Positions 57,028-64,000 of a DNA stretch of 64,000 bases are shown piece after piece. Position 1 is the stretch's first letter. Every line of letters begins with the position of its first letter. This DNA is from Dyella tabacisoli (GTDB taxonomy: Bacteria; Pseudomonadota; Gammaproteobacteria; Xanthomonadales; Rhodanobacteraceae). The position numbers were made by a program, and so were the translations under genes. The notes under the pieces are model-generated. The model made no database searches. It saw only the letters and a program-made list of their open reading frames with translations, and had not been told where the DNA came from. The stretch lies in the NCBI RefSeq assembly GCF_003350925.1, contig NZ_KZ857173.1, positions 682,001 through 746,000 of the forward strand, read 5' to 3'.

Positions 57028-58020
57028 TTAGGCCCAAACCGTCGAAACACCGAGGCGAGCCTCCACGTTAGCGATCAATGACATCATGCCAAAGTGCCCA
57101 GCAGGGGCGAAGGCTCCACCACGACTTGCACCGTACAGAAGGCCCAGCGCAGTCGACCCAACACCGTCGAGAACCAGCGATCCGGAGTCGCCGCCATCCA
57201 CGAAGACACCGCCATTTCCGAAGATCTCCACCTGTTCAACGAGGTAAGTATTGCCCCCCCCTGGCGACCAATTGATAGTCATCCATTTGCCGACAACCTG
57301 AGCACCCAAGATGCTCCCATTCGTCGGTCCGGTCATAAAGCCTCGCTTGCGCACAGTTTGGAATATCGCCGGCTCGGCCGTCGCGGTCACTGCGGGTATC
57401 AAATCAGGAAAACCAAGGCCTTGGCCGGAAATTGCTCGCGAGACACCACGCCCCTGTGCTGCCGCCCCATTGGTCCGAAACACACCAGAATCGGTCGTGC
57501 TCACCCTTATCGGCGAAAGCGGCAACGGTGGCGTGTCCGGAAAATCAACACGAAGAACATCACCGACAAGGTCATCTAGTATCGGCGGGACACTTGCGAT
57601 CAGATTCGGCGTCTTTGACTGCCAGATCTGCGTTCCAACTGGACCGGTGACATGGAAGTTACTCAGCCCAAGTATCTCCCCCGTTGCGGTATCCATCACC
57701 AGAGCACCCATTGTGCCGAAACCGCGTGCTTGGGACTCGATCCTGATTCCACCACGAAGCTCGGGGTAACGATCCACGTCCGGGAACGCGACCGGCTCAT
57801 ATACACGCTCGATGATGCAGACCGCGACACCTGCGATTTCACTGGGTAATCCATCAGGCACCCGTGAGGCATCCTCCACGAGGATCCTTACGGCAAGCTC
57901 ATCAGAAAACTCGCCGTTCTCCTCTCGTGCACCAAGCCCTATGCCAACCACGCCAGGAAGGGCAAGCAAGCCAAACTCGACCTGAGCCTTCGCCTGTATG
58001 AGTTCTTCCGGAATGTCCAT
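57028..58020 (-). CDS. Trypsin-like serine protease, no signal peptide
   Basis: A 330-residue chymotrypsin-fold protease. The serine is in DGGDSGSLVLDG near residue 280, the catalytic His is in SNFHVTG near residue 121, and an Asp candidate is in LRVDFPDT. The N-terminal ~100 residues form a separate region (VVGIGLGAREENGEFSDELAVRILVED). No signal peptide is seen, so it is either cytoplasmic or exported by another route. The start at 58020 has GGAGG 5 bases upstream. It is one of several genes between the ATPase remnant and the lanthipeptide locus; a link is not shown. Confidence 0.75.
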   Translation of the reverse strand: MDIPEELIQAKAQVEFGLLALPGVVGIGLGAREENGEFSDELAVRILVEDASRVPDGLPSEIAGVAVCIIERVYEPVAFPDVDRYPELRGGIRIESQARGFGTMGALVMDTATGEILGLSNFHVTGPVGTQIWQSKTPNLIASVPPILDDLVGDVLRVDFPDTPPLPLSPIRVSTTDSGVFRTNGAAAQGRGVSRAISGQGLGFPDLIPAVTATAEPAIFQTVRKRGFMTGPTNGSILGAQVVGKWMTINWSPGGGNTYLVEQVEIFGNGGVFVDGGDSGSLVLDGVGSTALGLLYGASRGGAFAPAGHFGMMSLIANVEARLGVSTVWA

Positions 58021-58360
58021 GAGCGCCTCCATATTTGGTGAATAAGATGGCTACACGTTTCAACGGATTGTCGGGATGTTCCCGGCCACAAGCCGGATAG
58101 AGCAGCGAAGATCATGGCACAGTTCTCTGGGATTGGGACTCGACTACATATCAGCCTCATCCGCATAAAGAAGTCCATCTGCGCGCAATGGATCAAAGCG
58201 CATAGGGGTCATTTGGACTAGCCTAGGGCCGTGGCTACTGAGACTCAGCGCAACGTCCCTACCCTGTCGATGACTGATGATCCCTGCGCCTCGGTGGTTA
58301 ACCACGAGTGCTACGCAAGTGGGTTATGCCACGGCCATGACTGCCGAGCAGCTATTGACG
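58021..58360. other. Intergenic, nothing recognised
   Basis: About 340 bp between the protease start and the end of the aminotransferase gene. No convincing frame, hairpin or repeat. Confidence 0.4.
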
Positions 58361-60763: not shown

Positions 60764-63598
60764 TCACGCGGCTTGATTCAGGCGCTCAAGCAGCAGCGGC
60801 GAGGCCAGCTTGCAGTCTGGATGCATCCGGTTGAGGCTATGGATCGCACCAGCCAGACCGGTCATCAGACCCGGTGTAAAGGCGGCACGAGTCATTCCGC
60901 CGATCACCCCGTGATGCTCCTCAATGGCCGAAATAACCTGCGCGGTCGGCTCATCCCGGTCGGCGCTGGAGACATCGGGATCCAGCGCCGCGGCGCGCAC
61001 GAACAGCTCCCACAACGACAGGTCGCCGTGGCAAAGGGTGTGACTTGAACCCCACTGTCCATGCGAAGCCGTAACGGCGCGACGCAAGGTGCGCAAATGA
61101 CGCGGATCACGCGTGCGCGCGTACAGATCGCCGGCGGCCAAACCGATGCCGACACTGCCATTGCACCAGGTGTGAAAGGTCTCAGTGACGCCCAGTTGGC
61201 GCATGTCGAGCCAATTGCCCAGCGTCTCGTCGTACAACGAATCCTGGAACGCGAACGCAGCGTTGGCGAGCGCACTCCAACGCGCGCGATCGGCCTCGTC
61301 GCCTGCACCGGCCAGCGCCAGTCGCGCCAATGACCAACCGACGCCGACGGCGCCGTGCGCGAATCCGCCGATCGGCTCGGCGAACACCGGCGTCTGCCAG
61401 CGCGCGCCGCGCGCATCGACAATAGCCGCTGCCTCCAAGTGCCGTGCCGCCCGCGCAGCCAGTGCGAGCCAGCGTGCATCGCCGGTGGCCTCGGCCAGTT
61501 GCAATAACGGCACGATGGCACCACTGGCCCCATCGATGATGTCGAAATAGGTATCGTTGCCGAAGCCTTCGAGCGCCAAAGCCTCGGCACAAGTCACCGC
61601 GTTAGCCAGCAACTCGGGACGCCGCAACAGATCATGCAGGGTCAGCCAGGTCCATATCTGCGCACCGTAGCCGCTAAAGCCGCCAATCGTCCGGGGCTTG
61701 TCGGCTATGACCAATGCCTGCAGGATTTTCAAGGCACCGTTGAGTGCGTCGTCAACACCGGGCACCACGTCTGCACGGCCGCACTCAACCTCGTATACGT
61801 AGCCAGCCAACGCGACCACGACCCCACCGAGGCCAAAGTAGACATCGGCCTGCAGCGGTTGGACCAGCCAGCCGCTCTGGGTCGTTTCCGGGGTAATCCA
61901 GGTCACCGAGCCATCGTCGCCGCGCACGGCAAGCCGTAGCAGGCGCTCGACCGCTTCCACAGCAAGCTTGCGGCGGCGTGCATCAAGACGATCAGTATGC
62001 GGATGGCGAGCGAAGTAATGACGCCCGCTTGCCACGGGCTCGTCAACGCTGCGATTGAGCTTGGTCGCGACTAACGCGCTGCGGATGGTCAGCTCCTCCA
62101 GATCGATGCGCATCGCCCGCCAGTCGGCCAGCGCTGCATCGATCCGCGCGCGATTCAGCGGCGCTGCGAAAACCGGCACATCGCCGTAGCGCAGATCGTC
62201 GATCTCGGCCGCTATCTCCTGCGCTGCCGATGGCGCGATCGGCACCACGAGAGCATTGCGTGCGAGCAAGTCGCGGGCACGCTCGATCGCCTTGGCTTCG
62301 TCGTACAGCGAAGCCGGGTGCCATAGCATGCGCCCGATTTCCATATAGGCCTGGGTCGGCCGGAGGATATCGCGAGCCTGGCAGTGCTCGAATGCAGCCA
62401 GCAACGGCATGAGTTCGCCATCGGCATCGAGCTTGCGCAACTGCGTTGTGGCAGCGAGAAAACCTTCGCTGATCTGGTCCCAATACAACGACACGTCAGG
62501 ATTCCGGCCGGGGTGATTCCGGGCCGGAGTCACGTCGACATTGATGACCTTTACTCGCGCCTCCGTCGTGCCCTCGCCCACGATAACCGGCGCATGCACT
62601 TGCGGCTGCTGGTTCGGTAATGCGCCGGCCGCGGAGATGTCGACGCCATCAAAGCCTAACGCCGGCGCGCGGTAGGGGACGATACCGGTGCGCAGCACCG
62701 AGCTGCGGATCAGTACTTGGGCAACATCGTAAGCGTGGCCGTATGGCGATGGCAGGCCCTTGTCGATGACGGCGAACAAACTCTCGACGTCGATGACTAC
62801 GGGTACCGGACCTGCGGCGATCAGATTTTCCAAATGGATGTCTGTGCCACCGAGCAGGCGCAACACCGCCAACCAATGACCCAGGCCGCGATAAAAGACC
62901 CGCAGCTCGTCTTCGCTTTCACAATAGCGCTGGACAACGAAGGCGGCCCAGCCATAGTCGCCGCGGTCGATCACCTCGGGCACGCGGATGCGGTTGGCGG
63001 CGGTGCCGAAAACGCCGGCAAGAAATGCATCGAGCACGCTGTCGATGCGTAGCGAACGCGGCTTGTACATTACCTCGCCGCCCTCCAGCGACAGCCGCGC
63101 TACGGCTTGGCCGCCCGCGTGCAGATCGCCCTGACCCAGGGCCAGTGCGGTCAGCCGCCCGGCCCGGCGGCCGAGCAGGCGCGCCAGCGCGGCACGGTCG
63201 GTGATAAACCGCATCAATAGTGTTTCGATGGATATTCGCTGCTGGCTGAGTACACGCTGCAGGCGCTTGCGCAGTGCCGGATAGCGACGATCCAGATGCT
63301 CGGCAAATTCCGCTTGCAGCGAGCGTTCGACGAATTGGGCAAAACGACCGGCGTCGTCTTCGGCAACCAATTCACCGGCCCGTTTGGCGGCGTGCAGCTC
63401 CAACAGCAGCACGCGATTGAGCTTGAGTCGCGCCGTATGGTGCACGGCCTCTTCGACCGCCGAGCGAATCAATGCCGCTTCGCCGAGATCGAGCCCTGTG
63501 GATAGTTCCGCGAGGCGGGCAGCGAACGCTGCACGTGTGGAGGCGGTGAAGTGTTCAATGATGCGGGTGAAGGCATCAGGTGTACTTGTCTCGACCAT
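60764..63598 (-). CDS. lanM: Class II lanthipeptide synthetase LanM
   Basis: A 944-residue bifunctional lanthionine synthetase. The N-terminal dehydratase (DUF4135-like) covers about residues 100-490 with MYKPRSLRIDSVLDAF and the family segment GGTDIHLENLIAAGPVPVVI. The C-terminal LanC-like cyclase (about 560-940) has Zn ligands Cys812 (TWCNGSVG), Cys856 and His857 (LCHGDLSLWEL) and GGFAHGAVGVG. It should phosphorylate/eliminate Ser/Thr and add Cys in the adjacent precursor. Full length. The precursor lies 98 bp upstream with a hairpin between. Confidence 0.95.
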   Translation of the reverse strand: MVETSTPDAFTRIIEHFTASTRAAFAARLAELSTGLDLGEAALIRSAVEEAVHHTARLKLNRVLLLELHAAKRAGELVAEDDAGRFAQFVERSLQAEFAEHLDRRYPALRKRLQRVLSQQRISIETLLMRFITDRAALARLLGRRAGRLTALALGQGDLHAGGQAVARLSLEGGEVMYKPRSLRIDSVLDAFLAGVFGTAANRIRVPEVIDRGDYGWAAFVVQRYCESEDELRVFYRGLGHWLAVLRLLGGTDIHLENLIAAGPVPVVIDVESLFAVIDKGLPSPYGHAYDVAQVLIRSSVLRTGIVPYRAPALGFDGVDISAAGALPNQQPQVHAPVIVGEGTTEARVKVINVDVTPARNHPGRNPDVSLYWDQISEGFLAATTQLRKLDADGELMPLLAAFEHCQARDILRPTQAYMEIGRMLWHPASLYDEAKAIERARDLLARNALVVPIAPSAAQEIAAEIDDLRYGDVPVFAAPLNRARIDAALADWRAMRIDLEELTIRSALVATKLNRSVDEPVASGRHYFARHPHTDRLDARRRKLAVEAVERLLRLAVRGDDGSVTWITPETTQSGWLVQPLQADVYFGLGGVVVALAGYVYEVECGRADVVPGVDDALNGALKILQALVIADKPRTIGGFSGYGAQIWTWLTLHDLLRRPELLANAVTCAEALALEGFGNDTYFDIIDGASGAIVPLLQLAEATGDARWLALAARAARHLEAAAIVDARGARWQTPVFAEPIGGFAHGAVGVGWSLARLALAGAGDEADRARWSALANAAFAFQDSLYDETLGNWLDMRQLGVTETFHTWCNGSVGIGLAAGDLYARTRDPRHLRTLRRAVTASHGQWGSSHTLCHGDLSLWELFVRAAALDPDVSSADRDEPTAQVISAIEEHHGVIGGMTRAAFTPGLMTGLAGAIHSLNRMHPDCKLASPLLLERLNQAA

Positions 63599-63653
63599 CG
63601 TTTGCTCGGAATCCTTCCAGTTCAGGAGGCAGTTCGCAAAACTATCGATGATA

Positions 63654-63682
63654 AACGCGCAGCCAAAAGCGGACTGCGCGTT
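63654..63682 (-). terminator. Hairpin between precursor and lanM
   Basis: 9-bp perfect arms AACGCGCAG and CTGCGCGTT with an 11-base loop lie 14 bases after the precursor stop, followed by a short T-poor region. Such partial terminators let precursor mRNA exceed synthetase mRNA. Confidence 0.6.
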
Positions 63683-63696
63683 GATTGAAGCTTAGT

Positions 63697-63900
63697 TCAA
63701 CAGCAGTCACACCCGCCGAACCCGCCGCACGAAACGGTGGTCGCGCTGGTAAACATATTCATCCCCGCGGTCGAGCTGGTCAGTGCCGCCTCGGTCGCTG
63801 CCGCACCTTCGATGTAGAGTGGACCGGCCGGATTCTCCATGCCGTCAATGCTGTCCGAACCGCTGAGCCAGCCCGAAACGATATCGTCAGTCTGTTGCAT
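63697..63900 (-). CDS. lanA: Lanthipeptide precursor peptide (LanA)
   Basis: A 67-residue peptide. The acidic leader (QTDDIVSGWLSGSDSIDGME) leads into ENPAGPLYIEGAAATEAAL. The probable core is the last ~27 residues with nine Ser/Thr (T41, S42, S43, T44, T51, S52, T54, T55, S57) and four cysteines (C58, C64, C66, C67) in SCGGFGGCDCC. No GG/GA cleavage site is unambiguous. AGGAG 7 bases before the start supports it. The neighbouring LanM is the evident modifying enzyme. The end of the window cuts off upstream genes. Confidence 0.85.
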   Translation of the reverse strand: MQQTDDIVSGWLSGSDSIDGMENPAGPLYIEGAAATEAALTSSTAGMNMFTSATTVSCGGFGGCDCC

Positions 63901-64000
63901 AGCGTTACTCCTAAGCTATCGAGTTGGATTTGAATGGCAGCCAATCCCACTTCTCCGGGATTGAAGCCATTCCCGAACATTGATATTCAAGACGTATGCG
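63901..64000. promoter_or_regulatory. Upstream region of the lanthipeptide operon
   Basis: The last 100 bases hold the precursor ribosome site AGGAG and presumably its promoter. I see no confident -10/-35 pair. A weak AATCCC/GGGATT inverted repeat is present. Confidence 0.3.

Follow-up and report, generated by a model that had tools for sequence, protein, structure and literature searches.

A compact DUF6229-type class II lanthipeptide locus in Dyella tabacisoli and its predicted product

In class II lanthipeptide systems, a LanT transporter with a C39 peptidase and a double-glycine leader are usual, although not strictly required, and the clusters of LicM2 and CylM carry both LanT and immunity genes. 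Rhodanocin, the LanII of Dyella sp. 333MFSha, has a DUF6229 precursor and was shown by experiment to be a class II lanthipeptide (Nat Commun 2022, PMC9576775); it is dehydrated four times by its LanM and carries three rings (T6-C11, C8-S14 and T12-C23), and its structure was solved by NMR (PMC9576775). It is weakly active on Klebsiella (126 uM), and it is the only peptide for which a growth-inhibition value is reported in the DUF6229 literature covered here (PMC9576775). In a Lysobacter survey, 21 of the 27 unique class II precursors belong to DUF6229; the precursors fall into six families and are uncharacterised (PMC11451712).

The precursor and its lanthipeptide synthetase

The window, a stretch of 64,000 nucleotides of the D. 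tabacisoli genome (contig NZ_KZ857173.1, positions 682,001 to 746,000), had been proposed from its letters to contain a class II lanthipeptide locus. The proposal is supported by profile matches to DUF6229, TIGR03897, DUF4135 and LANC_like, and the reading frames of the precursor and the LanM lie exactly where they had been placed. The whole 5.07-Mb genome contains a single LANC_like match (lanM) and a single DUF6229 match (lanA). The elements of the locus, with the evidence for each in brackets, are the following:

63697..63900, minus strand: lanA, 67-aa DUF6229 precursor, MQQTDDIVSGWLSGSDSIDGMENPAGPLYIEGAAATEAALTSSTAGMNMFTSATTVSCGGFGGCDCC (open reading frame, profile match, family alignment, dN/dS)
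60764..63598, minus strand: lanM, 944-aa type 2 lanthipeptide synthetase (TIGR03897, Pfam, phmmer, active-site residues, dN/dS)
63654..63682, minus strand: G+C-rich stem-loop between lanA and lanM, AACGCGCAG...CTGCGCGTT (fold z-score)
63907..63913, minus strand: AGGAG-type ribosome-binding site directly 5' of the lanA start (read from the sequence)
60764..64000, minus strand: the part inside the window of a putative transferable cassette (3334-bp match to Dyella sp. OK004)

The two genes are separated by 98 bases, and the sequence upstream of lanA, AGGAGTAACGCTATG, is identical in Dyella sp. OK004 (loci L037 and L047, genome G088). A promoter and terminator scan of the locus found none. The stem-loop could possibly be an attenuator or a processing site; no T-run terminator was found, and we set this candidate aside as weak, the fold z-score of the intergenic stretch being only -1.8.

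Aligned from end to end, the precursor scores 82.4 bits against PF19740 (DUF6229; cut-off 25), and it has both hallmarks of the family, namely the NPAG(P/S)L(Y/F) leader motif and the C-terminal Cys pair. The conserved leader is of the type MQQxDDIVSGWL...NPAGPLYIEG..ATEAAL, and the family motif NPAGPLYIEG..ATEAAL is carried by the window precursor. In the family alignment, the end of the leader shows no recognisable GG, GA or GS site. As claimed in the original prediction, the peptide has 67 residues and the C-terminus SCGGFGGCDCC (C58, C64, C66 and C67), with nine Ser/Thr that follow the leader and precede the first Cys (T41, S42, S43, T44, T51, S52, T54, T55 and S57). DUF6229 is present in 42 of 233 genomes and in 13 of 26 genera of the same bacterial family, and it can also be found in a second family of the order and in one actinomycete, Kitasatospora (L044). 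In the latter, Kitasatospora sp. GAS204B, a DUF6229-type precursor (L044 9470-9745) is accompanied by a LanM that is 49% identical, a pair that hints at a transfer between phyla.

The description of the core as unusual, and of such peptides as little characterised, was overstated, because the precursor belongs to DUF6229, in which the C-terminal CC is near-invariant and from which peptides have been produced, characterised structurally by NMR (rhodanocin) and mined in numbers from Lysobacter (PMC9576775, PMC11451712). What stands is that no characterisation of the TTxSC..GCxCC core was found in the literature searched. The precursor-LanM pair is thus of an already known family, and the core is its uncharacterised part.

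LanM is complete, as had been claimed, and its 944 residues comprise a DUF4135 dehydratase domain (residues 106-478) and a LanC-like cyclase domain (LANC_like, 581-928). It matches TIGR03897 with 489 bits (cut-off 304), and its phmmer matches with solved structures are LicM2 (6st5, 173 bits) and CylM (5dzt, 102 bits). The active residues known from structure work on CylM, D252/H254/K274/D347/H349/N352/D364/R506/T512, map onto D158/H160/K179/D253/H255/N258/D270/R409/T415 of the window LanM in the phmmer alignments. The Cys-Cys-His zinc ligands of the cyclase (C812, C856 and H857) and the catalytic H748 are all present. Since these mapped residues are intact, and invariant in 43 LanM relatives except for T415 and H748 (42 of 43 each), the degenerate active site that had been named as evidence against the prediction is not what the enzyme has. 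In the LanM tree, the window sequence is paired with that of OK004 (support 100/100) inside a 25-sequence clade (support 100/98) that excludes the rhodanocin-pattern LanMs.

Core types and predicted rings

The cores of 43 distinct DUF6229 precursors were compared; the leader is conserved among them, and most of them end in CC. The groups observed were the rhodanocin pattern (L081, L083 and L084), CGTxCTGS..CC, CSxC[ST]AS..CC, TTCS..CxCC and TTxSC..GCxCC, the last of which includes the window peptide and those of L037, L041, L043 and L076 (genera g1, g9, g8 and g14). The pattern T.C..CT.S...T....C, built from the ring positions published for rhodanocin (PMC9576775), is absent from the window peptide.

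Within the TTxSC..GCxCC group, T54, T55, S57 and all four Cys are conserved, and the counterpart of T51 is a Thr a few residues upstream. The other core Ser/Thr are variable (S42 is replaced by G in OK004, and S52 by A in L076), and D65 is not conserved (S, I, A or L in its place). In this core type, which is shared with other genera of the Rhodanobacteraceae, there are therefore four conserved dehydratable residues for four Cys, which suggests that the peptide carries four thioether rings. As no Ser/Thr follows C58, every ring would need a Ser/Thr on its N-terminal side.

Surroundings of the locus and peptide export

A LanT gene was sought in the window from 55.7 kb on and in the 14 kb past the window end (L003). 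None was found in these flanks, in agreement with the original prediction for the window, and a genome-wide C39 search gave no match inside the window. The extension of the analysis beyond position 64000, which had been recommended, revealed no linked LanT, C39 peptidase or immunity gene in these 14 kb. The claim that the window has no protease was not strictly right, in that the reading frame at 57028-58032 (minus strand), 2.7 kb downstream of lanM, encodes a 334-aa protein that appears trypsin-like by eye and has SNFHV and GDSGSLV motifs. This protein matches nothing in Pfam or NCBIfam, is rare (a single distant match among the genomes of 60 relatives) and is possibly an orphan serine protease. 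A downstream methyltransferase, a PLP enzyme and this GDSGS protein were rejected as cluster members, as none of them has a conserved linkage with lanM.

Just past the window, a 117-aa reading frame (L003 5345-5698, plus strand) looks, on inspection by eye, like the N-terminal part of an AraC-family regulator; it has no match in Pfam and is possibly a truncated regulator. Further genes within the 14 kb encode an alginate lyase, a cyclophilin-type isomerase and a phospholipid-methyltransferase-like protein, and two more proteins are considered below:

L003 6058-6738: Asp_Arg_Hydrox protein, with the lipid hydroxylases OlsC/LpxO as best matches
L003 9668-11647: MsbA-like ABC transporter without C39, 4.8 kb upstream

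In OK004 and in a genome of the same genus as the window (G001), relatives of the ABC transporter, the isomerase and the lyase are located away from lanAM. Clustering of the reading frames of 51 neighbourhoods yielded lanA and lanM as the only widely shared families, and no immunity gene linked to lanAM was found in the window locus or in the neighbourhoods of its relatives.

A phmmer search of the 51 neighbourhoods with a single C39 query detected no C39 protein, and with the Pfam model none was close to a precursor in 20 of these genomes, the nearest being 28 kb away (G225). In OK004, G100 and G001, the only C39 match per genome is a short protein (open frames of 243-288 aa), and there is no C39-ABC transporter, an absence that allows for a missed gene, as the assemblies are about 99-100% complete and some are not closed. 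It is therefore improbable that a classic LanT matures the OK004 peptide. Because no LanT is linked and no C39 transporter was seen in OK004, leader removal and export probably use unlinked, non-C39 functions. The rhodanocin leader resisted the C39 protease LahT150 (PMC9576775), which fits such a route.

Exporters of other types were found beside some other DUF6229 loci. A SyrD/PvdE-like ABC exporter is near lanAM in all five CSxCTAS-type loci (L048, L049, L050, L051 and L053), and a different ABC exporter is near three CGTxCTGS loci. L051 and L053 also bear a prolyl-oligopeptidase-like gene. No SyrD-like or other such ABC exporter was found beside lanAM of the TTxSC group in the 51 neighbourhoods. 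The SyrD/PvdE-like ABC was rejected as the exporter here, as it is not near the lanAM of the window and has only weak matches elsewhere in the genome.

Outside the window, on contig C7 of the same genome (G000:C7, L098 5501-9379), genes for an HlyD-like protein, a C39-ABC transporter and a 56-aa double-glycine peptide (MSKMESLSFEQVQAVSGGVTAYELG...) form what looks like a class II microcin locus. The C39 protein encoded there is the one long C39 protein of the genome (open frame of 727 aa), and OK004 has no counterpart of it. It likely has its own substrate, because the HlyD-like protein and the double-glycine peptide adjoin it; it might still serve as a helper for the window peptide.

Selection, mobility and function of the cassette

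Compared with OK004, lanA has a dN of 0.0065 and a dS of 0.42 (dN/dS 0.015), and lanM a dN of 0.040 and a dS of 0.46 (dN/dS 0.087, near-equal in both halves of the gene). These values indicate that both genes are under strong purifying selection, as a maintained pair. The homology to OK004 comprises 3334 bp with 88.3% identity. It starts at the stop codon of lanM and extends beyond lanA by about 197 bp of upstream sequence, so that the far edge of the cassette is at L003 5098, 97 bp past the window end; the flanks of this match are unrelated between the two genomes. An unlinked ABC gene of the same genomes has a dS of 1.07. As the dS of the cassette is less than half of this value, with this one gene as the reference, the cassette has probably passed from one genus to another since the two genomes split, and it is probably a compact unit that moves horizontally. 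In G001, a remnant (C157:104022-104105, about 9023-9106 of L086) preserves the sequence upstream together with the first codons of the leader (about 22), after which the sequence is unrelated, with the core and LanM gone; we consider it a deletion scar of the same cassette. G001 also holds a different DUF6229-LanM pair at C22. In a search of plasmid records, only distant LanMs were found (27-42% identity, on five records).

Very probably, lanA and lanM together form a working cassette of just two genes for a class II lanthipeptide of the rhodanocin-related DUF6229 family, most likely with four rings in the product, with unlinked export and probably with an action on competitors. The scar in G001, together with the lack of a linked LanT, LanP or immunity gene, could instead be read as a sign that lanAM is a degraded or silent relic from which no product is made any longer. 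We consider this highly improbable, as dN/dS is very low for both genes (only one of the 67 precursor residues differs, at a dS of 0.42), and the catalytic residues of LanM are intact; moreover, the whole subgroup as a rule lacks LanT, so that the gene has not been lost at this locus in particular. Just as improbable is a larger cluster, in which the MsbA-like ABC transporter would export the peptide and the Asp_Arg_Hydrox protein would hydroxylate D65 of the core. An ABC exporter is indeed encoded in the same region, D65 sits between Cys residues, and DUF6229 and the ABC co-occur slightly above expectation in the bacterial family (10/31 vs 32/202, Fisher p 0.04, uncorrected for phylogeny). 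However, the ABC gene is unlinked to lanAM in the nearest relatives and the homology ends at the cassette edge, for which this candidate was rejected; moreover, the hydroxylase is best matched by lipid hydroxylases, and D65 varies within the subgroup.

The tight C-terminal arrangement of the four Cys (C..C.CC), and the lack of an antibiotic context and of linked export machinery, might also be expected of a Cys-rich peptide with another job, such as metal binding or disulfide redox, the LanM only dehydrating or acting on another substrate. This is very unlikely, given that the precursor adjoins a LanM in the loci examined, that it shares its leader with an experimentally modified lanthipeptide precursor, and that the subgroup has as many conserved Ser/Thr directly upstream as it has Cys.

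For the functional cassette, we infer the number and direction of the rings, the export and the activity from sequence. LanM would bind the conserved leader of LanA and would phosphorylate and then eliminate T51, T54, T55 and S57; some of T41-T44 and S52 might also be dehydrated and left as Dha/Dhb. The zinc site would then add the Cys thiols to the dehydrated residues, most likely forming four overlapping (methyl)lanthionine rings from T51, T54, T55 and S57 to C58, C64, C66 and C67. The modified peptide would be released and exported by unlinked host functions, not by a C39 LanT, and would probably act outside the cell against competitors. This antibacterial action is an assumption taken over from rhodanocin; the gene context, in which an exporter, a protease and an immunity gene are all missing, supports neither secretion nor antibiotic action.

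A broader and tentative idea, which we regard as possible but rather doubtful, is that the TTxSC..GCxCC peptides have a new ring topology and are encoded by a minimal mobile lanA-lanM pair without dedicated exporter, leader peptidase or immunity, being matured by shared housekeeping functions. If true, the subgroup would offer an uncharacterised ring topology within a family of which the single member assayed is active on a Gram-negative species, and would pose the question of how the leader is removed and the peptide exported in a genome in which no C39 transporter was found (OK004). Owing to its two-gene size, the cassette should be easy to test in E. coli.

Rhodanocin and the window peptide share the Pfam precursor family, the LanM class and the bacterial family Rhodanobacteraceae, whereas the ring pattern T.C..CT.S...T....C is that of rhodanocin and the window peptide ends in GCDCC, with four Cys. 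Between the window LanM and those encoded at rhodanocin-pattern loci, the identity is only 38-40%, and the window LanM lies in a separate clade; the experimental proof therefore stems from a different branch of the family. The Lysobacter DUF6229 precursors and WP_036102482.1 from a lysobactin neighbourhood, compared at the level of their published description, are of the same precursor family and class II, with differing predicted rings (PMC11451712). LicM2 and CylM have the same domain order and the same catalytic and zinc residues as the window LanM, with low overall similarity. The locus of Dyella sp. OK004 has the same core, a precursor with one substitution (S42G) and a LanM that is 92% identical, in different genomic surroundings.
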